Shown: one piece after another, positions 18,598 through 29,778 of the stretch | Numbering within the stretch: the first letter of the stretch is position 1 | How the letters are laid out: every line of letters begins with the position of its first letter | NCBI GenBank assembly: GCA_902784305.1 | Contig: CACZUK010000014.1 | Span: 1-60,720, forward strand | Source: Oscillospiraceae bacterium | Lineage (GTDB): Bacteria > Bacillota > Clostridia > Oscillospirales > Oscillospiraceae | DNA length: 60,720 bases | Reading direction: 5' to 3' | Position numbers and translations under genes: made by a program | Notes under the pieces: model-generated | Databases searched by the model: none | What the model was told of the DNA's origin: nothing | What the model saw: the letters and a program-made list of their open reading frames with translations, nothing else

Positions 18598-19656
18598 TCA
18601 AATCCGGCTGCCCCGCAGGCGCAGGGACTCCCGGATGATGATTTCGCACAGCTCGCCGTAGCTGATGCCCGCCGCGGCCGCCTCCTGGGGCACCAGGCTG
18701 GTGGGCGTCATGCCGGGCAGGGTGTTGATTTCCAGGAACCAGGGCGTGCCGTCCTCGGTGACGATGAAGTCCGCCCGGGCGTACACCGCCATGCCCACGG
18801 CCCGGAACACCTTGCGGGTGTCCTCTGCCAGCCGCCGCTCCCAGCTCTCGGGGATGGGTGCGGGCGTGATTTCCTCCGCCGCTCCGGGCTGATACTTGTT
18901 GGCGTAGTCATAGAAGCCGCTCTTGGGTACAATCTCGATGGAGGGCAGCGCCCGGTCCACCAGATAGCCCACCTGAATCTCTCTGCCCTCGATGTACTGC
19001 TCCAGCACCACGTCGCCGCCCAGGGGGATGCACTCCTCAAGGGCCTGCACCAGCTCCGCCTTCGTGTTGGCGATGGACACGCCGATGGAGCTGCCCGAAG
19101 CCAGCGGCTTCACCACCACCGGCAGCGGAGTGCGCCGGGCAATAGCGGGGATGTCGGCGGCGGTGTAGCTCACCTTTTCCCAGGACGGGGTCTTGACGCC
19201 GGTGGGCACCACCAGCTTTTTGGTCAAATCCTTGTCCATGGCCATGGCCGCGGCCAGGAATCCGGTGCCGGTGAAGGGAATGCCCAAAGTTTCCAGGGTG
19301 GCCTGGATGCGGCCGTCCTCGCCGCAGGCCCCGTGGAGGGCCAGGAACACGATGTCCGCCATGCGGCACAGCTCCAGCACACCCTCACCGAACAGGGACT
19401 CGCTCTTCCACTTCCGGGCCGCCTTCAGCCCCTCCAAATCCGGCGGCTGACGGCTCACCTTTTTCCAGCCCGTGGGGATGGGCAGATTGAAGCACTCCTC
19501 CATGGCACCCTGGTGGTCCTCCAGTCCCAGGTACAGGTCCACCAGCGCCACCTCGTGGCCGCGGCCGCGCAGGGCCTCCGCCACCATCGTGCCCGAGGAC
19601 AGGGACACGTTGCGTTCATCGCTCAGGCCTCCGGCCAATACAACAATTCTCATCAT
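18598..19656 (-). CDS. ddl: D-alanine--D-alanine ligase
   Basis: An ATP-grasp ligase of 352 residues that joins two D-alanines. Visible features are LHGACGEDG, VVKPLASGSSIGVS, the KSGFYDYANKY omega-loop region and the metal site FLEINTLPGMT. The tyrosine-containing omega loop fits a D-Ala specific enzyme rather than the VanA/VanC ligases. Two ATGs lie in tandem; AAAGGAG is 6 bases from the first. It is the first gene of the long leftward run through murF to the M18 aminopeptidase. Confidence 0.95.
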   Translation of the reverse strand: MMRIVVLAGGLSDERNVSLSSGTMVAEALRGRGHEVALVDLYLGLEDHQGAMEECFNLPIPTGWKKVSRQPPDLEGLKAARKWKSESLFGEGVLELCRMADIVFLALHGACGEDGRIQATLETLGIPFTGTGFLAAAMAMDKDLTKKLVVPTGVKTPSWEKVSYTAADIPAIARRTPLPVVVKPLASGSSIGVSIANTKAELVQALEECIPLGGDVVLEQYIEGREIQVGYLVDRALPSIEIVPKSGFYDYANKYQPGAAEEITPAPIPESWERRLAEDTRKVFRAVGMAVYARADFIVTEDGTPWFLEINTLPGMTPTSLVPQEAAAAGISYGELCEIIIRESLRLRGSRI

Positions 19657-19695
19657 CCTACACTCCTTTGCTGGGAGAAATTTGCATACAGATTC

Positions 19696-19724
19696 ATTTT
19701 AGCATATGGGTGGAGGAAATACAA
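19696..19724 (-). promoter_or_regulatory. promoter of the ddl-murF operon
   Basis: TTGTAT (19724-19719), a 17-base spacer and TAAAAT (19701-19696) on the minus strand, about 40 bases before ddl. Confidence 0.7.
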
Positions 19725-19749
19725 CCGAAGATTCCCTTTTTCAGGGGTG

Positions 19750-19797
19750 AAAATGAACAAAATACCAGAACAGGAACCGAAATTCCTGTTCTGGTAT
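19750..19797 (-). terminator. candidate terminator of the kinase genes
   Basis: A perfect 15-bp inverted repeat (19762-19776 with 19783-19797, 6-base loop) is followed on the minus strand by a T-rich tract (TTTTGTTCATTTT). It would separate the hybrid kinase transcript from ddl, though it lies more than 400 bases past the kinase stop. Confidence 0.6.
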
Positions 19798-19952
19798 CCA
19801 AATCGCGGCCCGGCTCCCACGCCCCGGCCCCGAAATGGTGCAGGGAATGGTGGGAATCGCCCCAATTGCCCTTCTTCCGCAGTCGGTCGAGCGGCCACGA
19901 ACCCTCCGGGCGCTGCCCGGACAGTCCCCGCCGCGCGTGAGGGGAGAAAATG
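19798..19952. other. GC-rich spacer with no recognised feature
   Basis: No gene, repeat or clear regulatory site was recognised between the hairpin and the tandem repeats. Confidence 0.4.
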
Positions 19953-20223
19953 ACCTGAACAAAGCAGAGAATTTGTCCGAAACAGAGAAATCAGGCTGCA
20001 ATCAGCGTTTTTTCGCGATAATCTGTTCGTTCATCACCCGCGCTAGCTCCTCAGTGCAGAAATCGCCCTGAACATAGCAAAAACCTGCCCGAAACAGAGA
20101 AACAGGCCCAATCAGCGCTTCTTTGCGGTAATCTGTTCGTTCATCACCAGCACCAGCTTCTCAATGCTGAAATCACCCTGAACAAGGCAGAGAATCTGCC
20201 CAAAACAGTGAAAACAGGCTCAA
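19953..20223 (-). repeat. two degenerate tandem copies of the 3' end of the adjacent kinase gene
   Basis: Units of about 110 bases begin at 19999 and 20109, in register with the true gene end at 20221 (spacings 110 and 112). Read on the minus strand, the copies would encode GDFCTEELARVMNEQIIAKKR-stop and GDFSIEKLVLVMNEQITAKKR-stop, matching the real C-terminus DIDELVQVIHEQITAKKR-stop. Each copy is followed by a similar linker containing CTCTGTTTCGG and CTTGTTCAGG-like segments. The copies have no start codon and no upstream receiver domain, so they look like remnants of repeated duplication or collapse. Confidence 0.8.
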
Positions 20224-21849
20224 TCAGCGCTTTTTCGCGGTAATCTGTTCGTGAATCACCTGCACCAGCTCATCAATGTCGAAGGGCTTGGCCACATGCT
20301 CGTCCATGCCGAACTCCCGGCTTTTGCGCCGGTCCTCCTCCCTGGCGTTGGCGGACAGGGCAACAATGGGCAGCGCTCCCTTCTCTCCCAGGGCGCGAAT
20401 GGCCAGGGTGGCCTCGTAGCCGTCCATCACCGGCATCTGGATGTCCATCAGAATCAGGTCGAAATAGCCCGTCGGATGCTCCGCGACGGCATCCACCGCC
20501 TCCCGGCCATTGACCGCGCACTCGACCTCAAAGCCGGACTCCTCCAGCAGCGCTTCCGCCAGCAGCAGGTTGAGCTCCACGTCCTCCACCACCAGAATCC
20601 GGAGGGGACCGTCGATTCTGGGCTGGGCAGTTTCCCTCGGCGCGCTGGCCTCCTCCCCGGGCAGCAGAGGCAGGCTCAGGGCGATGGTGAACGTGGTGCC
20701 CTTCCCCTTCTCGCTCTGAACGGAGATGGTGCCCCCCATCCGGTCGAGCAGGTTCTTCACGATGGTCAGGCCCAGACCGGTGCCGAAGGTGCCGGATTGG
20801 GTGGAGGTCTCCTCCCGCTCGAAGGCGTTGTACATGCGCTCCAGAAAGGCGGGGGAAATGCCGATGCCCGTGTCGGCCACGGTGATGGTGTAGCCCATCC
20901 GCTCCCCCTGCGGCTCCGGGCTCTGCCGGGCCGTCAGAGTGACCGTCCCGTTCCGGGGCGTAAACTTCATGGCGTTGCCCAGCAGATTGCTCAGCATGCG
21001 GCGCAGGGCGCTGGGGTCTGCCAGAACCCGGCTCTCGTCCAGTGCCAGCTCCTCCCGCAGGCAGAGGTGCCGCTCCTCGGCCTCCACGCGGTAGGACTCC
21101 AGCAGCAGCTCCAGCTGGCCGCGCAGCTGAACCGGCTCATCTTTCAGGACAAAGCGGCCGCCCTCCAGCCGGTTCATCTCCAGCATGTCGTCGATGATGC
21201 ACAGCATTTGACGGCTGGAGAGCGCAATCTTGTCCAGATACTCCTCCAGCAGCTCCGGCTGCCGGAAGTGCCGCCTGGCCAGCTCCGAATAGCCGATGAT
21301 GGCGTTCATGGGCGTGCGGATGTCGTGGGAAATATTGAACAAAAAGTTGGTTTTTATCTCGTTGAAGCGCTTTTCCTCCAGCAGCTCCAGCTCCATGTGG
21401 TGCCGCTCCTCCTGACTGCGCCGCTTCTCGGTGACATCGGAGAGGAACACATAGTACACCGGCCCATAACCGGGCAGCTGGGTGTAATGGCCGTAGTCCT
21501 CCACCCAGCGCAGCTCCCCGTCCCGGCGCCGGATGCGGTACTCCACATAGTCCAGGTTGTCGTTGGACCGGTCCGCAATCTGACGTTCGATGGAGGCCTG
21601 CACCCGGGGATAGTCCTCCGGGTGGACCATGCCCCGGAAGGTGTAGCCGGTGAGCGCCCGAAAGTCCTCCAGGCTCCCGCACCCGAAGATGCGCAAAACG
21701 GCCTGATTGACGTGCAGCAGCTCCTGCTCCCCTCCCTCCCGGTAAAGGAAGAATCCGCCCGGAAGCTGATCCCCCAGCCAAAGCAGGGAGGATAAATCCG
21801 GATTTGACGGGTCAAACCCAGCGATTGAGGTTTTTTCATGCTCGTTCAT
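20224..21849 (-). CDS. PAS-domain hybrid sensor histidine kinase with C-terminal receiver
   Basis: A soluble 541-residue hybrid kinase with no membrane segment. In order it has a PAS domain (about 30-140), a DHp domain with phospho-accepting His175 in SHDIRTPMNAI, a HATPase with an N-box (LLGNAMKF) and G-boxes (DTGIGIS, GTGLGLTIV), and a receiver with Asp469 in LILMDIQMPVMDG. The start is the ATG with GGAG 8 bases upstream rather than a TTG two codons earlier. It follows the permease-kinase gene by 38 bases, so the two are likely cotranscribed. Its 3' end is followed by two degenerate copies of itself. Its signal is unknown. Confidence 0.92.
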   Translation of the reverse strand: MNEHEKTSIAGFDPSNPDLSSLLWLGDQLPGGFFLYREGGEQELLHVNQAVLRIFGCGSLEDFRALTGYTFRGMVHPEDYPRVQASIERQIADRSNDNLDYVEYRIRRRDGELRWVEDYGHYTQLPGYGPVYYVFLSDVTEKRRSQEERHHMELELLEEKRFNEIKTNFLFNISHDIRTPMNAIIGYSELARRHFRQPELLEEYLDKIALSSRQMLCIIDDMLEMNRLEGGRFVLKDEPVQLRGQLELLLESYRVEAEERHLCLREELALDESRVLADPSALRRMLSNLLGNAMKFTPRNGTVTLTARQSPEPQGERMGYTITVADTGIGISPAFLERMYNAFEREETSTQSGTFGTGLGLTIVKNLLDRMGGTISVQSEKGKGTTFTIALSLPLLPGEEASAPRETAQPRIDGPLRILVVEDVELNLLLAEALLEESGFEVECAVNGREAVDAVAEHPTGYFDLILMDIQMPVMDGYEATLAIRALGEKGALPIVALSANAREEDRRKSREFGMDEHVAKPFDIDELVQVIHEQITAKKR

Positions 21850-21887
21850 ACTCAATTCTCCGCTCTCTGGAAGGCCCGCGGGGTCGC

Positions 21888-24800
21888 TCAGCCCCCGTGC
21901 TGACGAAGCAGCTTGTGAAGCGTCTCGTACAGCCGTTCCGGCTCCACGGGCTTGGACAGGTGCGCGTTCATGCCCGCCTGGAGGGAGCGCTGCACGTCCT
22001 CGTCGAAGGCGTTGGCCGTCATGGCGATGATGGGAATCTTCTTTGCGTCGGGGCGTTCCAGCGCGCGAATCTTCCTGGTGGCCCCCAGGCCGTCCATCAC
22101 CGGCATGCGCACATCCATGAGGATGGCGTCGTAGTAGCCCGGCTCGCTCTTCTCAAACATTTCCACGGCCACCTGGCCGTTGACTGCGCGTTCTCCCTCG
22201 ATTTCCTCCATGTCCAGCAGGTCCATGAGGATTTCGGCGTTGATGTCGATGTCCTCCGCCAGCAGGACCCGGTGACCGGCCAGAATGCCGCCCTCCTCCT
22301 CGCTCTCAGAGGTGTCATCGTCGCTCTGGGCTCCGGCGTCGGGGTTCTTTTTGTGGAGCACGTTCTGAATCTCCCGGGTCAGGGTGTCCGTAAACAGAGG
22401 CTTGCTCAGCAGTCCGTCCACTCCGGCGGCCCAGGCCTCATCCGTGGCCTCTTCCAGGCTGTAGCCGGTGAGCAGGAACACCGCCGTCTGTCCGTGGTCG
22501 TGGCGGCGCAGCTCCCGAATCAAATCAATTCCGTTCAAATTGGGCATCCGGTAGTCCGTCACGACCATCTGGAAGGGCGCGCCATGCTTCAGCTCCGCGA
22601 GGATTCTGTCCAGCGCCTTCCGGCTGTCGGTGCAGCCCTCGGCCTGAATGCCCACGTCGCTGAGCACCAGCTGGGCGTGCTGGCAGGCCACCTCGTCGTC
22701 GTCCACGACCATCGCCTTCAGATGGCTCAGGTCCAGATCGTGCTCCTCCCGGGCGCTGCGGCTGGAGGACTTCAGCATCACCGTGACGGTGAAGCTGGAG
22801 CCCACACCCTTCTCGCTCTCCACCTGGATTTCACCGTTCATCATCTCCACGATGTTCTTGGTGATGGCCATGCCCAGGCCGCTGCCGCCGTAGCGGTTCG
22901 TGGTGGTGGCGTCCTCCTGGGAGAAGGCGTCGAAAATCTTGGGGATGTAGTCCTTGTCCATGCCGATGCCGGTGTCGGTCATGGTGAAGCGGAGGGTGCG
23001 GTGCCCCTCATAGCTGCCAATCTCCTCGACGGTGAAGGTGACGGTGCCGGGCGCGTTGGTGAACTTCACCGAGTTGCCCAGGATGTTGATGAGCACCTGC
23101 TTGAGCTTCATATCGTCGCCCACATAGTACTCCCCGATGCGTCCGATGATGCGGCAGTGGAAGGTCAGGCCCTTATCCTGGCACTGGCCGTTGATCATCA
23201 CGTTGATTTGGTCCAAAAAGTCCCGGAAGGAGAACTCCTCGCTCTTCAGAACCATGCGGCCGGACTCGATGCGGCTCATGTCCAGAATGTCGTTGATGAG
23301 GCCCAGCAGATGCTTGGCGCTGCCCCCGATTTTCTCCAGCTGCTCCCGGGTTCTCGGGCTCAGGTTCGGGTCCTTGAGGGCGATGTTGTCCAGGCCGATG
23401 ATGGCGTTCATGGGCGTGCGGATCTCATGGCTCATATTGGACAGGAAGCTGGTCTTGGCCCGGCTGCTCTCCTCGGCCAGAATCTTCTCCACCTCCATCT
23501 GTTTCTCCCGCTTCTGCATGATGGAGTAGATGTCAAACAGCAGAATCAGCGCCCCCATAATCAGCACCATCTGCACGGTGCTGTCGATGTTGATGCTGCG
23601 GTTGATGCGCTCCATGCCCTTCTGGATGACCTGCTCCTCCTCTTCCTGTTCGCCCGGCTCCTCCTCCGGGTTCTCCGCCGCGGCGGTGTGGTATTCCTCA
23701 AACACCCGGGCCGTGACGCGGGCCGTGGACTGGCGCAGCCAGACCAGAGAGGTGAAGAGAATCAGGCCGAAGAGCACCATCCAGACCATGGTGGAGCGGC
23801 CCAGACGCCGCTGCCTGTCCGCCCGGAACACATGCCGGAAGAACACAAAGCCCAGAATGCTCCAGGTGGCCAGAATAAGATAGGATTCCGGGGAGAGTGT
23901 GCTGACATCCAGCATATTGGGCACCAAAAAGTAGAGGATAAAGGTGAAGGAAATCCCCAGTCCCAGAGCGCCGAACACCGTGTAAAACCGGGACTGATTG
24001 GCGCGCGCCTCCTTGAGGGCGCTGGCGGAGGTGTAGGCGTAGGCAATCGCCGCGCCCACCGTGGTCACGTCCACAATCCAGCTGATGGCCGTGCGGCCGA
24101 AGAAGGGCAGCACGACGGAAATCAGCATGGTGCAGGCGATGGCATTCCCGGGGACGCCGAAGCGGTTGAGCCTGCCCATCCAATCCGGGAGCATTTCGTC
24201 CTGAGCCAGCGCGTACATCAGGCGGCTGGAGGCCACATAGTTGCTCACCAGACCCGTGACGATGCCGCCCAGAGCCGTGACGCCCAGCAGCGCGGAGCCC
24301 AGATGACCCAGCACGGAGTGGACGGCGAAGAAGGTGGGCAGGCCCTCCAGGCCAGAGTGGCTGCCCAGATTGGCGATGTACTCCCACCAGCCCGCGTAGC
24401 CCGCCGGCTGCACCATGGCGGCCACCACGGCCAGCATCCCGTAGGCACCTCCCGCCGTCACCACCGCGATGGCCAGAATCCGGAAGGACTTTTGGGCCGG
24501 GAACCGGAACTCACTGGTGGAGTGGGAGATGGACTCAAAGCCCACATAGGCCCAGGGCGCCAGAGCCACGACGTTCATCATGCCGGAGAGGCCTTTGGGG
24601 CCCACAGCGTGGGGTCCGGAGAGCACCGCGGCCGGTCCGCCGGTATGCACAGACACCACGGTGAAGCACAGCGTGATGCCCACAAAGGTGATGAGGGCCA
24701 TGACCGACTGAACCACGCCTCCGGCGCGGCCCTGGATGCACAGCGCCCCGGCAATCACCAGCGCCAGCACGGCCGCCAGCACCTCGCCCAGGTAGATGTG

Positions 24801-25223
24801 GAACCCAGCCATCTCGTAGCCCAGTCCCCACTGGAGGGCGCTGCCCAGCAGATTGCGTCCAATCAGCGGCAGGGCAGTCGCGTTGGCCCAGATGATGGCA
24901 ACGTAGGTCAAAATCAGAAACCAGGCGCACAGAAAGCCGTGATCGCAGCCAAAGCACTTCTGCACATAGGTGTAGGAGCCGCCGCAGGACGGGTTCAGGT
25001 TCATCAGATAGTGGTAGTTCACGCCGATAATCAGCATGACCACCGCGCCGATGAGAATGCCCAGCACCGTGCCCAGCGGACCCGCCAGAGGCAGGAAGGT
25101 GGTGCCCGGCATCACAAAGGAGCCCCAGCCCACCGCGCCGCCGAAGGCCAGCGCCCAGGCGCCCAACGGCCCCAGATAGTGCCGCAGGCCGCCGCGCTGC
25201 TTGTTCGTTTCGTTTTTAGCCAA
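21888..25223 (-). CDS. amino-acid permease (APC) fused to a hybrid histidine kinase with two receivers
   Basis: A 1111-residue membrane protein. Residues 1 to about 450 form an APC-superfamily permease with about twelve hydrophobic segments, beginning FGGAVGWGSFVMPG. A further segment, an acidic loop rich in Glu (about 510-540) and another membrane segment (LIMGALILLFDIY) follow. Then come a DHp with His599 (SHEIRTPMNAI), a HATPase (GNSVKF, DTGIGMD, GSGLGMAIT), receiver 1 with Asp890 (VVTDYRMPN) and receiver 2 with Asp1037 (LMDVRMPVMDG). The start is TTG with GGGAGAG upstream. The permease half is probably a solute sensor, as in other transporter-linked kinases. Whether it still transports is unknown. 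Confidence 0.9.
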   Translation of the reverse strand: MAKNETNKQRGGLRHYLGPLGAWALAFGGAVGWGSFVMPGTTFLPLAGPLGTVLGILIGAVVMLIIGVNYHYLMNLNPSCGGSYTYVQKCFGCDHGFLCAWFLILTYVAIIWANATALPLIGRNLLGSALQWGLGYEMAGFHIYLGEVLAAVLALVIAGALCIQGRAGGVVQSVMALITFVGITLCFTVVSVHTGGPAAVLSGPHAVGPKGLSGMMNVVALAPWAYVGFESISHSTSEFRFPAQKSFRILAIAVVTAGGAYGMLAVVAAMVQPAGYAGWWEYIANLGSHSGLEGLPTFFAVHSVLGHLGSALLGVTALGGIVTGLVSNYVASSRLMYALAQDEMLPDWMGRLNRFGVPGNAIACTMLISVVLPFFGRTAISWIVDVTTVGAAIAYAYTSASALKEARANQSRFYTVFGALGLGISFTFILYFLVPNMLDVSTLSPESYLILATWSILGFVFFRHVFRADRQRRLGRSTMVWMVLFGLILFTSLVWLRQSTARVTARVFEEYHTAAAENPEEEPGEQEEEEQVIQKGMERINRSINIDSTVQMVLIMGALILLFDIYSIMQKREKQMEVEKILAEESSRAKTSFLSNMSHEIRTPMNAIIGLDNIALKDPNLSPRTREQLEKIGGSAKHLLGLINDILDMSRIESGRMVLKSEEFSFRDFLDQINVMINGQCQDKGLTFHCRIIGRIGEYYVGDDMKLKQVLINILGNSVKFTNAPGTVTFTVEEIGSYEGHRTLRFTMTDTGIGMDKDYIPKIFDAFSQEDATTTNRYGGSGLGMAITKNIVEMMNGEIQVESEKGVGSSFTVTVMLKSSSRSAREEHDLDLSHLKAMVVDDDEVACQHAQLVLSDVGIQAEGCTDSRKALDRILAELKHGAPFQMVVTDYRMPNLNGIDLIRELRRHDHGQTAVFLLTGYSLEEATDEAWAAGVDGLLSKPLFTDTLTREIQNVLHKKNPDAGAQSDDDTSESEEEGGILAGHRVLLAEDIDINAEILMDLLDMEEIEGERAVNGQVAVEMFEKSEPGYYDAILMDVRMPVMDGLGATRKIRALERPDAKKIPIIAMTANAFDEDVQRSLQAGMNAHLSKPVEPERLYETLHKLLRQHGG

Positions 25224-25446
25224 AGTTTCTCTCCCATTCCCCGCAAGGGGTCCGTCAGTGCTTCTGTTGCCGAAAAACCGGATAAATCGCCCCAGTAATC
25301 GGCTTTTTCAGCCGTTTTTTTCGTCCTTTTGGGACAGCTGCAAAACACGGCGATAATATTTCCGGCAAGCTCACGTTTTTCAAATGGGGAAAATTGTTTC
25401 CCTGCCGGAGCAGTCAAGGCGCAAGGGCAGCGCCGGTCAGATGCTC
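25224..25446. other. leader region of the permease-kinase gene
   Basis: No gene. A hairpin CGGCT/AGCCG at 25300-25314 is followed by seven T on the plus strand, pointing away from the kinase gene. A weak minus-strand promoter is possible near 25350 (TATTAT with a poorly spaced TTGAAA), but I am not sure of it. Confidence 0.35.
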
Positions 25447-25483
25447 ATGAAAAAGGCCAAACTCTGCCCGAAGGCAGAGTTTG
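25447..25483 (-). terminator. terminator after the HPt gene
   Basis: An 11-bp stem (25458-25468 with 25473-25483) with a stable TTCG tetraloop on the minus strand, then GCC and five T. It separates the HPt transcript from the permease-kinase gene. Confidence 0.8.
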
Positions 25484-25501
25484 CAAGGCTGCAGCGCCTC
25501 G

Positions 25502-25870
25502 TCAGCCCTGTTCGTACTGACGAATGCCGTCGATGGTGCGCTGATAGAGCGCGGCAATGGCGCTCAGCTTTTCCCTGACCTGCTCGTCGGTGTACTTGCG
25601 CGCGGTGCCGGGGCGGAACTCCTCCGCCAGCTCGCTGGCAGCCTCGGACAGGGTCACCAATCCCAAGTTGGCACACACGCCCTTCATGGCGTGAGCGCTC
25701 TCGAACATACCCGTGGCATCCAGCTTCTCCCCCGCCGCGGCGAGAGACTCCCCCACCTGGCTGCTGCTGAGCTTGCGGATGTAGCGGTCAATCAGCCGGT
25801 CCCGGCGCATAATCTTGGTCGCCTGCTCGTAATCGCCCCCGATGAGGGTGTAAAGCTCCTGAAGTGTCAT
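25502..25870 (-). CDS. stand-alone HPt (histidine phosphotransfer) protein
   Basis: A 122-residue all-helical protein with the HPt motif ESAHAMKGVCANLGL, in which His60 is the expected phospho-site and the following Lys and Gly are conserved. It has no other domain. HPt proteins carry phosphate between receivers in multi-step relays. Here it sits between a receiver-EAL regulator upstream and two hybrid kinases downstream, so it is the natural shuttle between them. The upstream region has TCCTCC on the plus strand, i.e. an AGGAGG-type site before the ATG. Confidence 0.9.
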   Translation of the reverse strand: MTLQELYTLIGGDYEQATKIMRRDRLIDRYIRKLSSSQVGESLAAAGEKLDATGMFESAHAMKGVCANLGLVTLSEAASELAEEFRPGTARKYTDEQVREKLSAIAALYQRTIDGIRQYEQG

Positions 25871-25950
25871 TTTTTTGTTCCTCCTTTATTCTGGCATCTC
25901 CGCACAGCGGCGCTTTTTCCGCCCTTTGACGCGGAGAAGTCTTGTCCATC

Positions 25951-26094
25951 TTTAGAGGTTGTATTCACAAGTGAAGTGCGCCAGATGGACGAGCAATTTT
26001 GCCGTCAATCAAGGCAAAATTTCGCAGGAATCCTTTGTGGATTTCAAGGGCCGTCCAGATGGTGTGCGGCACCTTGTGAATACAGCCTCTTAAA
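25951..26094. mobile_element. MITE-like element with terminal inverted repeats
   Basis: The left end (25951-25970) and the right end (26074-26093) are inverted repeats matching at 18 of 20 positions (core TGTATTCACAA). Further inward are paired blocks GATGGAC/GTCCAGAT and AATTTTGCC/GGCAAAATT, so the whole 144-bp unit can fold into one long imperfect hairpin. It has no reading frame and sits between the HPt gene and the receiver-EAL gene. It looks like a non-autonomous, transposase-dependent repeat. I see no second copy in this window and no clear target duplication. Confidence 0.65.
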
Positions 26095-26112
26095 TCAGCC
26101 CGTTTTGGCGCT

Positions 26113-27813
26113 TCAAGCGCGGCTTCTCAGCTCCAGCTCCTGGCGAATCAGCGCCTCAAACTCCTCCGGCGGCAGCGGCCGGGAGAAGTAGTAGCCCTGC
26201 ACCAAATCGCAGCCCGCCTGTTTGAGCAGCCTGAGCTGGTTCTCCGTCTCCACGCCCTCCGCCACCACGGGCACGTTCAGGTATCGGGCGATGTCGAGAA
26301 TCAGCTCCACCAGCCGGAAGTCCTTTTCGTTGACCTCAATGTTCTGAATGAACTTCATGTCCATTTTCAGCACGTCCAGCGGCAGAGAGGAGAGCATGTT
26401 CAGAGAAGAGTAGCCCGAACCGAAGTCGTCCATTTCCACCTTGAAGCCCAGCTTCCGCAGGCGTTCAATCACCGAGATGAGCTGCTCGCCGTCGTCGGTG
26501 TACGCCGACTCCGTCACCTCCAGCTTCATATCCGTGGGACTCAGGCCGTTGTCCTGGATGAGCCGCAGCAGCTCGCCCTCCAGCTCCGGGTCGAAGATGT
26601 CCGTGCGGGAGAGGTTCACGCTCACCGGAAGGGTGATGCCCAGTCGGCTGCGCCACTCGCCGATTTGTCTGGCCGTCTGCGTCCAAACGTAGTTGTCCAC
26701 CACATGAATCAGGCCGTTGCGCTCAAAGAGCGGGATGAAATCCCCTGGGGAAACCATGCCCAGCTCCGGGTGCCGCCAGCGAATCAGGGCCTCCGCGCTG
26801 CGCAGTCTGGGCGGCTCCACCTGAATATCGTACTTCGGCTGATAAAAGACCACGAACTGGTGCTCCTCCACGGCGCTGCGCAGGTCGTTGAGCAGCCGCT
26901 GGTAGTACAGCTCCCGCTGGTGGACGCTCTCGTCGTAAACCATCAGATGGGTCTTGTAGCTGCCCCGAACCATGTTGCACGCGGTCTTGGCCCGGTCAAA
27001 CACGCTCCCCAAATCCACGCCCTCTCTGCACGGGCACACGCCCATGCGCAGGCTCACATTAACCCGGGTGCACAGACTGTGCATTTGCGTCTGGAAGCGG
27101 GCGAGCACCTCGTTGTAGTCCTCCCGGTGCTGACAGAGGATGTAGAATTGATCCGCCTCCATCCGGCCGGCCAGGCCCCGCGTCTCCTTCAAAAAGGCGC
27201 GAATTTCGTCGGCCAACTGCCTCAGCGTCCGGTCTCCGAACTCCCGTCCGTTCAGGTCGTTGACCGATTGGAAGCGCTCGATGTCCAGCATCACCGCGTC
27301 CATCCTCCACTCGGGATGGAAGTGCAGAACCTGCTCCGCGTACTCGTGGAAGAAGCCCCTGCTATAAAGATGCGTCAGCGGGTCGCGCTCCGTGGCCTGG
27401 ATGAGCTGCCGGCCCTCGTTGAGCTCAATCATCCGGCTCACGCGGGCCAGAATGACCTCGTGCATATCAAAGGGCTTGGTGATGAAGTCCGCCGCGCCCA
27501 GCTGCAACGCCCGCAGCTCCGCGCTCTTCTCCGCCGTCAGCACGATGATGGGGATGCGCTTCATGCGCGGGTCGCTGAACACCCGCTCCAGCACCTCAAA
27601 CCCGTCCATCACGGGCATCATCAAATCCAGCAGGATGATGGACAGCTCCTCCAGATGCTTCTCGATGGCCTCCACGCCCTCCTGACCGTTGTCGGCATAG
27701 ATGACCTCGTAGCCATCCTCCTCCAGAATGTCGCCCAAAACGGCCTGGTTGATCTCCTGATCCTCAACCACCAGCACCACGCGACGTCTCTGGATTTTGC
27801 CGGACTGCATCAT
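26113..27813 (-). CDS. response regulator with degenerate GGDEF and intact EAL domain
   Basis: A cytoplasmic protein of about 566 residues: a receiver (Asp63 in LLDLMMPVMDG), a GGDEF-like domain, and a C-terminal EAL phosphodiesterase domain. The GGDEF signature is replaced by GREFG, so cyclase activity is unlikely. The EAL domain keeps EALIRW (about 341), VNLS, EVTES, MDDFGSGYSS, VVAEGVE and QGYYFSRP, the residues expected for metal binding and c-di-GMP hydrolysis. The start is uncertain: GTG at 27822, ATG at 27813 or ATG at 27810. GAGG spacing favours the last two. It is the likely output of the kinase cluster. Confidence 0.9.
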   Translation of the reverse strand: MMQSGKIQRRRVVLVVEDQEINQAVLGDILEEDGYEVIYADNGQEGVEAIEKHLEELSIILLDLMMPVMDGFEVLERVFSDPRMKRIPIIVLTAEKSAELRALQLGAADFITKPFDMHEVILARVSRMIELNEGRQLIQATERDPLTHLYSRGFFHEYAEQVLHFHPEWRMDAVMLDIERFQSVNDLNGREFGDRTLRQLADEIRAFLKETRGLAGRMEADQFYILCQHREDYNEVLARFQTQMHSLCTRVNVSLRMGVCPCREGVDLGSVFDRAKTACNMVRGSYKTHLMVYDESVHQRELYYQRLLNDLRSAVEEHQFVVFYQPKYDIQVEPPRLRSAEALIRWRHPELGMVSPGDFIPLFERNGLIHVVDNYVWTQTARQIGEWRSRLGITLPVSVNLSRTDIFDPELEGELLRLIQDNGLSPTDMKLEVTESAYTDDGEQLISVIERLRKLGFKVEMDDFGSGYSSLNMLSSLPLDVLKMDMKFIQNIEVNEKDFRLVELILDIARYLNVPVVAEGVETENQLRLLKQAGCDLVQGYYFSRPLPPEEFEALIRQELELRSRA

Positions 27814-27822
27814 ATTCCTCAC

Positions 27823-28114
27823 GCCCTTTCAGGGGGTATTCTCCGCGTTTCGAGCCGAAAACGCCGGAGCGCTCCGCTTCCTTCCAATTGTAACATATCA
27901 GCGGAAAGATTTCCAGTCCCACTTTCATTTTGTTTTCCCTTTCAGCCGTGTTTTTCGCGCCGCGGGGAGGGAGCGGTGCGCGCTCCGGCGGCTGCCCCGA
28001 TGAGACGGACCGCGTGCCGCGCTGACTGGCCTTTCCAGCCGCGGCAACACGCGCAAAGCGAAGGATAAACCCCGGATTGTGCCCCGTCGGGCGCGTCTCG
28101 CCCACCCACAGGCA
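27823..28114 (-). other. leader and spacer upstream of the receiver-EAL gene
   Basis: The only signal I see is an extended -10 element TGTTACAAT on the minus strand (-10 hexamer at 27892-27887), about 75 bases before the gene, with no good -35. I found no c-di-GMP riboswitch motif and no convincing small gene. Confidence 0.4.
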
Positions 28115-28162
28115 CAAAAAAAGAACTGACCCGGACCTTGAATCCCCGTCCGGGTCAGTTCT
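28115..28162 (-). terminator. strong intrinsic terminator of the orphan RNA
   Basis: A perfect 15-bp stem (28122-28136 with 28148-28162) with an 11-base loop, followed by seven T on the minus strand. Confidence 0.9.
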
Positions 28163-28187
28163 CTTCTATCTTGAAGTCCAATTTCAT
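28155..28187 (-). CDS. possible 10-residue peptide inside the orphan RNA
   Basis: An ATG placed 8 bases after GAGG opens MKLDFKIEEN and stops inside the 5' arm of the terminator. The ribosome site lies in the loop of a possible UUUGAAG/CUUCAAG stem. This could be a leader peptide or chance; nothing else supports translation. Confidence 0.25.
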   Translation of the reverse strand: MKLDFKIEEN

Positions 28188-28436
28188 ATCCATTTCCTCA
28201 CTTTCTTCAAACTACCGGACACCACGCAATCAGACTGCACCGCACTCATCTGACCGGTTTCGGGCCTCAACACGTCAGCGCTGGAATCTTTACCCCGCTC
28301 CGGCAGGGACTCTTACCACGGACATTGTGTCTCGTCAGCCCACCCGCTGGTGGAATCCGCATCGACTTTCACTCCCGGGCGGCCGTCGATTCTGCCATCC
28401 CCCGAAGAGTTCTTCCTCTCTCTTCTGACTGTTGCC

Positions 28437-28465
28437 ATTGTACCACAGCGCTCTCTTTCTGTCAA
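28437..28465 (-). promoter_or_regulatory. promoter of the orphan RNA
   Basis: TTGACA (28465-28460), exactly 17 bases and TACAAT (28442-28437) on the minus strand, one of the best promoters in the window. Confidence 0.8.
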
Positions 28466-28525
28466 GCAGTTTTGAAAAGTTTTTTGATTATTTTTTCAGA
28501 CGCACCGGTGCCCCGAAACGGCTCC

Positions 28526-28548
28526 GCCCCGCCCGGGACGGGCGGGGC
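28526..28548 (-). other. GC hairpin after the exonuclease gene
   Basis: A 10-bp all-GC stem (28526-28535 with 28539-28548) lies just past the stop. No T-run follows on the minus strand, so its use as a terminator is uncertain. Confidence 0.4.
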
Positions 28549-28575
28549 AGCTTTGTCCCTCTGTCTGGTCAGGCG

Positions 28576-29778
28576 TCAGCCGCGCACCAGCGCCAGGAAC
28601 TCCTCCTCGTTGAGCAGTCGAAGCTCTTTCCCGGCGGCAATCAGCTCCCGGGCCTTCTTCTCCTTGCTGCTCATAGCCGCGCCGTTCTCCCTGCGCCCCA
28701 GCACAACAATCTGGGTTTTTCCGGACACGCCGCTCTTCACCACGGCGCCCTTGTTCACGGCCAGCTGCACCGCCTCCGAGCGGTCTATGCTCAAATCCCC
28801 GGTAAACACCAGCGTTTTCTGGTAGAGCGGGTGCGTCAGGTCAAACTGGTCCACTGTGGCGTGAACGTCCCCCAAACGCACGGATTTTCGCTGAAATCGG
28901 TTGAAATTGTTCCTCCTGTGGAAGTCTGTCTGGGGAAAGCCCTCCTGCTTCAGAAAGGCGCGCAAACTCTCACAGCCGACGCTTCTGACGCAGCAGAGGG
29001 CCACATTCGCGCAGGCCACCGCGTCGTCCAGCGCGTTGTGATGATGCTCCAGAGGGATGTCGAAATAAGCGCAGCAGGCGTCCAGCGTGTGGCGGCCGGG
29101 GACGATGTTGCGCACCATCTGCACGGTGTCGGCAAATTTGAAGTTGGGAATCCCGTCGCTCTGGCGCAGACTGCTGCGCAGGACGGAGGTGTCGAAGCGG
29201 GCGTTGTGGGCCACCACCAGGGTTCCGTCAAAAAAGTGACGAATTTCCGGCCAAATCTGGTCCAGCGTGGGGGCGTCGGCCGTCTGCGAGGGCGTGATGC
29301 CGTGCACCCGGACGTTCGCCTCCTCGTAGCGGTTCTGGGGCGGCTGAAGGAGGTGATACCATGTCTCCGCCACCCGGCCGTCCCGCACCACGGCAATGCC
29401 CAGCGCACAGGCGCTCTCATAGCTGCTGGTAGCGGTCTCGAAGTCGATGGCGACAAAATCCGGACCCGTCGCCTTGGCCGGTGCCTTCCGCTCCCGCGCC
29501 GCTTTGGTGCGCTCCCGGCCGCGGCCAGCACCCTTCTGCATCTCCGCCAGACAGTCCGGGTGAATACAGTGGTAGCGCTCCCCCACCTGAATGACCAGCG
29601 TGCAGGAATCCGCCGTGCCCTCGGCGGTGCATGGCTCCGTGCCCTCGGCAAACACGCCGCTATAGAACAAAGCCTTGGGTGCCTTTGCCCCCTGAGGGGC
29701 CAGCTTGTGCTCCTTTAAGTAGTTCAGCCGCTCCTCGTCAGAGGCGAAGGGCTGCCAGTTGGTGGGTTGAATCGCCAT
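28576..29778 (-). CDS. DnaQ-like 3'-5' exonuclease with BRCT domain
   Basis: A 400-residue cytoplasmic protein. After an N-terminal region of about 130 residues with two cysteine pairs, it has a DEDDh exonuclease domain with DFETATSS (first Asp-Glu), VAHNARFD and a final HHNALDDA. A C-terminal BRCT domain follows (about 310-400, starting TLVFTGDLSID). The family resembles the DNA polymerase III epsilon proofreading subunit, and BRCT-containing forms are common in Firmicutes repair proteins. The start is the ATG preceded by AGGAGAGAGACT; an extension to 29859 lacks a site. It is monocistronic. The substrate is not known. Confidence 0.85.
   Translation of the reverse strand: MAIQPTNWQPFASDEERLNYLKEHKLAPQGAKAPKALFYSGVFAEGTEPCTAEGTADSCTLVIQVGERYHCIHPDCLAEMQKGAGRGRERTKAARERKAPAKATGPDFVAIDFETATSSYESACALGIAVVRDGRVAETWYHLLQPPQNRYEEANVRVHGITPSQTADAPTLDQIWPEIRHFFDGTLVVAHNARFDTSVLRSSLRQSDGIPNFKFADTVQMVRNIVPGRHTLDACCAYFDIPLEHHHNALDDAVACANVALCCVRSVGCESLRAFLKQEGFPQTDFHRRNNFNRFQRKSVRLGDVHATVDQFDLTHPLYQKTLVFTGDLSIDRSEAVQLAVNKGAVVKSGVSGKTQIVVLGRRENGAAMSSKEKKARELIAAGKELRLLNEEEFLALVRG

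Follow-up and report, generated by a model that had tools for sequence, protein, structure and literature searches.

Here we describe a locus of four genes on the minus strand of a 60,720-nucleotide stretch of DNA from an Oscillospiraceae bacterium (assembly GCA_902784305.1, contig CACZUK010000014.1; hereafter the window), which we consider likely to encode a His-Asp-His-Asp phosphorelay controlling the breakdown of cyclic di-GMP (c-di-GMP). Comparative evidence makes this route well supported for three of the genes, which are predicted to encode a sensor histidine kinase (HK) built on an APC-family permease, a stand-alone histidine phosphotransfer (HPt) protein and an output protein with receiver (REC), GGDEF and EAL domains. 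In the proposed mechanism, the APC-permease-derived membrane domain, together with two extra hydrophobic segments, would sense a solute or its transport state and gate the kinase. Phosphate would pass from His599 to Asp1037 in the second receiver of the kinase (REC2), from REC2 to His60 of the free HPt protein, and from HPt to the receiver of the REC-GGDEF-EAL phosphodiesterase; the other, more diverged receiver (REC1) is probably modulatory. The individual phosphotransfer steps, the choice of REC2 over REC1 as the transferring receiver, the ligand and the direction in which phosphorylation would shift phosphodiesterase activity are all inferred.

The locus and its conserved neighbourhood

The four open reading frames lie at 20224-27822, and all could be assigned Pfam domains. 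The REC-GGDEF-EAL output protein (26113-27822) has 569 aa if translated from a GTG start and 566 aa from the ATG at 27813, its receiver phospho-site being Asp66 in the former numbering and Asp63 in the latter. The HPt protein (25502-25870; 122 aa) matches Pfam Hpt at 30.9 bits against a cut-off of 24.6 and carries its phospho-site, His60, within an AHAMKG motif. The APC sensor kinase (21888-25223; 1111 aa; AA_permease_2-HisKA-HATPase_c-REC-REC) has phospho-sites at His599 in HisKA, Asp890 in REC1 and Asp1037 in REC2. The last gene encodes a PAS hybrid kinase with one receiver (20224-21855; 543 aa; PAS_3-HisKA-HATPase_c-REC), whose sites are His177 and Asp471 from a TTG start, or 175 and 469 from the next ATG. 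All the parts of a multistep phosphorelay are present: HisKA/HATPase_c modules with a phospho-accepting His, kinase receivers with a phospho-accepting Asp, and an HPt protein with its conserved His. A first-pass annotation of the window had described the same four leftward genes, domains and phospho-sites, and every one was found again, with numbering that shifts only with the start codon. In an alignment of the window with 16 relatives (the incomplete locus L038 was left out), the H-box and both receiver aspartates of the APC kinase are each kept in 17/17 rows, the L032 row having no letters across the REC1 acidic pocket. His60 of HPt is kept in 17/17 rows as well, and the receiver Asp of the EAL protein in all 14 rows available for it (the window and 13 relatives).

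A scan of a genome collection for relatives returned 530, from which 78 loci were kept; 17 of these (L026-L042) encode close relatives of the window's APC kinase. Thirteen carry Clostridia-type submitter labels (Oscillospiraceae, Clostridiales, Clostridia, Lachnospiraceae) and four carry labels of other phyla (Flexilinea, Atopobiaceae and, twice, Chloroflexi). The HPt gene stands immediately before the APC kinase gene in 16/17 loci, the exception being L038, which is cut by a contig end. All three genes, with EAL directly before HPt, occur together in 14/17, including L032, where only the last 99 aa of the EAL protein are visible, and L036, where the APC gene runs off the contig. The three remaining loci are L038, L028, which has just 274 nt before HPt and no EAL match there, and L034. 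In five of the 14 loci the EAL and HPt genes share a 4-nt overlap, and in ten they are no more than 6 nt apart. Other APC kinases occur in the more distant loci L043-L045, L070, L072 and L103, and a non-APC HK-REC-REC kinase is paired with EAL and HPt in L047 and L070. Conservation of the neighbourhood was a check proposed with the first-pass annotation, and the EAL-HPt-APC kinase order found in the 14 loci did not refute the relay. The four-gene relay proposed there is partly supported: it stands for three genes and is weakly supported for the PAS kinase.

A counterpart of the PAS kinase at the same position was found only in L041 among the 17 loci (55% identity), a count limited by L036 and L038 being cut at one end and by L028 extending only 375 nt beyond its APC gene. 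In a tree of 54 hand-chosen receivers, the PAS kinase receiver groups with that of its L041 counterpart, away from the REC2 clade. Neither synteny nor the receiver tree supports the PAS kinase as a core member; it would be accessory, and a relay route for it is weakly supported.

The APC sensor module

The APC kinase combines a Pfam APC permease domain (residues 17-441) with two hydrophobic segments (about 478-496 and 550-568) that flank a variable loop, acidic in the window. A hydropathy scan finds only nine segments before residue 470, against the 12 helices of an APC permease core. The solved chains nearest to the permease part are amino acid transporters, 6f34 (E 3.6e-8) and 5oqt (E 1.4e-7), both of which we take to be the Geobacillus transporter GkApcT. 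None of the NCBIfam transporter models came near its cut-off against the permease part (best 77 bits versus 690), so no substrate can be named, and we infer an amino-acid ligand from the fold alone. The kinase is set apart from SLC5-STAC kinases by its Pfam list, which contains AA_permease_2 and AA_permease and no SSS match; the Pfam scan also gave no match to a STAC linker, although whether the library includes a STAC model was not checked. A plasmid search with the APC kinase matched at least 5000 records, none covering 80% of the query, and the five listed match the kinase part only.

The same input unit occurs on a different output. On contig C69 of the same genome (L148:2662-4899), an APC domain with two hydrophobic segments is fused to a GGDEF domain with an intact motif, and its input unit aligns with that of the window kinase over 576 residues at 40%; an APC-GGDEF chain was also detected by Pfam in another genome (G036, L130). 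Because the APC-plus-two-segment unit is naturally swapped between kinase and GGDEF, this supports its reading as an input module whose business would be c-di-GMP. Since the module occurs in nature joined to a kinase in one case and to a cyclase in the other, ligand and gating would be testable with the same input module.

Within the proposed relay, the input step could take either of two forms. The APC domain might be a working transporter whose turnover the kinase reads, that is, a transceptor, and we regard this as a tentative reading that falls some way short of even odds. The domain match covers 414/427 positions of AA_permease_2, and the family sample described below contains permease-length relatives without a fused output. 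On the other side, Lys191 of the solved Geobacillus transporter, presumably its proton site, has no counterpart in 17/17 APC sequences, and transmembrane segment 1 (TM1) carries GWG in place of that transporter's GTG; a Pro-Trp pair is conserved in TM6. These two differences make a transport-dead APC receptor, like yeast Ssy1, possible. A transporter-type kinase that does transport has a precedent in CbrA, which transports histidine (PMC7918813).

The HPt protein, its kinases and its outputs

The relay would not be confined to one kinase. Across the genome (2.40 Mb, 96.8% complete) Pfam Hpt has a single match, and a model made from 28 stand-alone HPts, among them the window's, likewise finds one. 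All 28 proteins match Pfam Hpt, with Ala59-His60 and Lys63-Gly64 invariant in their alignment, and their profile matches solved HPt domains, ArcB and CheA among them. Against this one HPt stand several REC2 paralogues. Two are HK-REC-REC kinases, one on C24 with an SBP_bac_3 sensor (72% identical to window REC2, 31% to REC1) and one on C1 with a PAS sensor (72% and 32%). A third, on C86 (L106:3954-7268), is the genome's second APC-HK-REC-REC kinase, on a contig without HPt (71% and 41%). A frame on C32 has PAS and two receivers and lacks a kinase domain (71% and 38%), and a dCache HK-REC kinase on C2 has one receiver only (63% to REC2). The last receivers of these five genes are thus 63-72% identical to window REC2 and the first ones 31-41% to REC1, with mean pairwise identities of 67% for REC2 (6 sequences) versus 40% for REC1 (5 sequences). 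Left out of both means is a PAS HK-REC-REC kinase on C77 (54% to REC2, 26% to REC1), whose REC2 falls just outside a 16-row clade of the receiver tree (100/99) that unites the REC2s of different sensors with the receivers of small membrane kinases. A further kinase of the same REC2 family, at C97:590-2403 (L114), is broken into three frames by pseudogenisation or assembly error.

A single detectable HPt beside several other hybrid kinases with similar REC2 domains suggests that the HPt protein is a hub collecting several sensors, and common docking to one HPt would explain the conservation of REC2. Since the genome has one HPt, deleting it or mutating H60 would probe many sensors in a single experiment. 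Convergence of two kinases on one HPt, which the first-pass annotation gave as a possibility, is better founded for the genome's other kinases than for the window's PAS kinase, because that gene's position is shared in one of the 17 loci and its receiver lies outside the REC2 clade.

In an alternative that we consider unlikely, HPt and the EAL protein are served mainly by another kinase, either the small membrane hybrid that relatives have upstream of EAL or one of the genome's other REC2 kinases, leaving the APC kinase with a minor or historical part. In 10/17 loci the gene directly upstream of EAL encodes such a small membrane hybrid kinase, and the four of these receivers included in the tree all fall in the REC2 clade; in L026 a kinase follows the APC kinase, and its receiver groups with those of the small membrane kinases. 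In one genome (G080), the HPt-EAL cluster has a non-APC HK-REC-REC kinase and both APC matches are on other contigs. In another (G011), HPt is adjoined by a non-APC kinase; this genome has an APC kinase on a separate contig, and 2.3 kb away, where the contig ends, the first part of an APC gene lies on the opposite strand. The window, however, has no small membrane kinase upstream of EAL, and the near-constant position of HPt directly before the APC kinase argues for the APC kinase as its partner.

The motifs EAL.RW, VNLSR, LEVTES, DDFG, LKMD and EGVE, which we take to be the catalytic EAL motifs, are kept in 14/14 output proteins, with only minor substitutions: Val for Ile in SAEALIRW (L027, L041), Thr for Ser in MDDFGSGYSS (L042), Asn for Thr in EGVET (L035) and, in QGYYF, one aromatic residue or leucine (L029, L033, L035, L036). 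The GGDEF motif is degenerate in 14/14 (EADQF or similar), none retaining an intact GG(D/E)EF. Because the EAL motifs are conserved and GGDEF is degenerate throughout, the output of the relay is probably a phosphodiesterase, and a bifunctional cyclase/phosphodiesterase is not favoured. The genome as a whole has 35 GGDEF and 17 EAL matches. A PilZ search of it gave no match, where a control search found PilZ in 5/14 genomes; an MshEN match at C105:2306-2569 (L185), in a 604-aa frame, is a candidate c-di-GMP receptor. A search for c-di-GMP-I riboswitches gave no signal in any control genome and so carries no weight. A second c-di-GMP cluster, on C2 (L109:2062-13831), contains an EAL-PAS-GGDEF-REC-GGDEF protein, a dCache hybrid kinase with a REC2-type receiver, and a GGDEF-EAL protein that, in its EAL domain, shares 69% identity with the window's output protein.

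In a sample of 120 genomes of the family, Pfam Hpt was found in 53 and the REC2 query (E ≤1e-26) in 43. Stand-alone HPt, defined as an Hpt match in a frame of <300 aa, was present in 41 genomes, although in G028 the match scores under the Pfam cut-off. REC2 is found in every one of the 41; conversely, 41/43 genomes with REC2 have a stand-alone HPt, the exceptions being G048 (59% complete) and G053, which is positive with our own HPt model. Regions around HPt were taken from the 40 other stand-alone-HPt genomes and G053; with L148 (no HPt) and L152 (inside L184) dropped, 49 regions were left, drawn from 41 genomes. Our own model finds no HPt in L177 and L179 and one in each of the other 47. The stand-alone HPt is linked to c-di-GMP enzymes across this sample: a same-strand c-di-GMP gene lies within 100 nt of it in 34/47 regions, in 32 genomes. 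Fourteen of these genes encode HD-GYP-GGDEF, 14 HD-GYP and six EAL proteins, and 31/34 have a receiver in the same frame. The HPt score is ≥60 for 43 of the HPts, of which 34 have a c-di-GMP gene, and a hybrid kinase lies within 250 nt of HPt in 22/47. Of the 29 distinct REC-HD-GYP proteins that these regions encode, 27 carry the GYP signature, 27 the HD signature and 26 both, and GG(D/E)EF is intact in 13/13 of the HD-GYP-GGDEF type. For scale, of the 13 non-kinase genes in the window's own genome with a receiver above the cut-off, four encode c-di-GMP proteins. The frames on C32 and C97 are not part of this count; eight of the other genes were classed from the length of the frame alone, and the C63 gene encodes an AraC-type regulator with a GGDEF_2 match (Pfam). 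Our own domain models were partly built from proteins that were later scanned, and separate support comes from Pfam and the motif checks. EAL (E ≤1e-110) is found in 11/120 genomes and the APC domain (E ≤1e-50) in 10/120, and the window's version is therefore one local form of a wider module. Related bacteria appear to retain the relay with other sensors and other enzymes.

It is conceivable, though we think it improbable, that the EAL protein is a c-di-GMP-binding adaptor, or that HPt drains phosphate as a sink rather than switching the enzyme on. The degenerate GGDEF half and the lack of PilZ matches in the genome would fit, and phosphorelays are often reversible. The EAL motifs are nevertheless kept with only small changes, and at the same gene position relatives place HD-GYP enzymes with intact signatures, which argues against this reading. 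Chance assembly of unrelated genes is ruled out because the gene order is conserved and the parts co-occur.

Several observations weigh against the proposed relay. In L034 the place of EAL, directly before HPt and the APC kinase, is taken by the receiver end of a hybrid kinase (L034:1-741), and the EAL-HPt gap widens to 80-148 nt in L031, L033, L035 and L036. No c-di-GMP gene lies within 100 nt of 13 of the 47 stand-alone HPts; 11 of the 13 lack a receiver gene there as well, and two have another receiver gene. The association of stand-alone HPt with REC2 (Fisher p 4e-30) is uncorrected for shared ancestry. The REC2 query marks a wider type than the strict clade, since its threshold admits receivers of about 47-58% identity, and the single receiver of the L149 kinase lies outside that clade. 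A genome of the same genus (G046) gave no match to the Hpt, REC2, EAL or APC queries. The window's genome has other receiver-bearing c-di-GMP proteins that are possible HPt targets (C2:11835-13556, C2:47061-50915 and C35:110-3916). Faster drift of REC1 after gene duplication would in part fit the REC2/REC1 pattern too. Finally, a terminator-like hairpin, described below, lies between the HPt and APC kinase genes.

Known systems and transcription context

Every link of the proposed route has a precedent. The relay would be a variant of known ones (Roc, VieSA and RpfCG), with an APC-permease sensor that did not appear among the literature matches listed. To our knowledge, RpfC-RpfG has no separate HPt gene. 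The Roc system of Pseudomonas aeruginosa (RocS4-HptA-RocR3; PMC12051241) likewise has a hybrid kinase, a separate HPt and a receiver-EAL protein, with interaction by two-hybrid assay, and in it several kinases with different sensors converge. Roc differs in its phylum, in kinases drawn with SBP/PAS sensors and their own Hpt, in having transcription factors as further outputs, and in that RocR and RocR3 are REC-EAL proteins without GGDEF; the activity of RocR3 is possibly compromised, according to its authors (PMC12051241). In VieSA of Vibrio cholerae (PMC4352251), too, a hybrid kinase relays to a receiver protein by which c-di-GMP is lowered, but the Hpt lies inside VieS, VieA has an HTH as well, and no transporter domain is described. 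In Xanthomonas, the hybrid kinase RpfC controls a receiver HD-GYP phosphodiesterase, RpfG, as in the relatives found here, with a fatty-acid sensor and HD-GYP in place of EAL (PMC5391125). The HptB hub of P. aeruginosa (PMC5085249) resembles the hub proposed here in that three orphan hybrid kinases feed one HPt, with a c-di-GMP link through HsbD; its phosphate, however, goes to HsbR in a partner-switching path, and the direct target is not a phosphodiesterase.

For the sensor, CbrA and the SLC5-STAC kinases (PMC13022988, PMC7918813) also join a transporter fold and a histidine kinase in one chain. They use SLC5 and a STAC linker, in contrast to APC (AA_permease_2) and two extra hydrophobic segments here, and CbrB and similar partners are transcription regulators. 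Yeast Ssy1 is an amino acid receptor that evolved from an APC-family transporter and, unlike the APC kinase, works through Ptr3 and the protease Ssy5 with no kinase fusion (PMC12958826). Among the matches listed in open-licence literature, we found no phosphorelay with an APC-family permease kinase, no case from this family of a stand-alone HPt paired with HD-GYP or EAL, and no such relay in rumen or gut Clostridia.

The locus provides a concrete scheme by which Clostridia of the rumen and gut could adjust c-di-GMP to the nutrients they sense. An APC-family transceptor would differ in sensor type from the SLC5-STAC kinases and also from the ammonium-transporter kinase, reportedly a further transporter-type sensor kinase. 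We see the chances as evenly balanced for a broader proposal. Its first part is that in this family a stand-alone HPt, the sole one in the window's species, is a gate between changeable sensors (APC-permease, solute-binding, Cache, PAS) and exchangeable c-di-GMP enzymes (EAL, HD-GYP, HD-GYP-GGDEF). Its second is that the APC-plus-two-helix unit is a portable transporter-fold receptor on kinases and diguanylate cyclases, which would make it the bacterial equivalent of yeast Ssy1, but coupled to a second messenger.

In the window, the hairpin (25483-25458, minus strand) has an 11-pair stem followed by a T run and begins 18 nt after the HPt stop; the region holds 8 terminator-like sites against a mean of 7.2 in shuffles, so the call rests on stem length and place. 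A promoter-like site upstream of the EAL gene (27887-27915, minus strand) matches 9/12 positions, with TG before the second hexamer, and is a consensus match only; the region has 4 such sites against a shuffle mean of 1.7. Within the 242-nt gap that separates EAL from HPt lies a dispersed MITE-like element of 143 bp (25951-26093) with 21-nt inverted-repeat ends. Because of the hairpin after HPt and the element in this gap, we do not assume a single four-gene transcript, and EAL-HPt and the APC kinase may be separate transcripts in the window. A plasmid search with the 143-bp element and an Rfam scan of 19600-28700 gave no match. The element folds far better than shuffles (z -5.25) and recurs in the same genome, as a partial copy in L108 and as another copy in L019, where the end spacing is near-equal (117, 118 nt).

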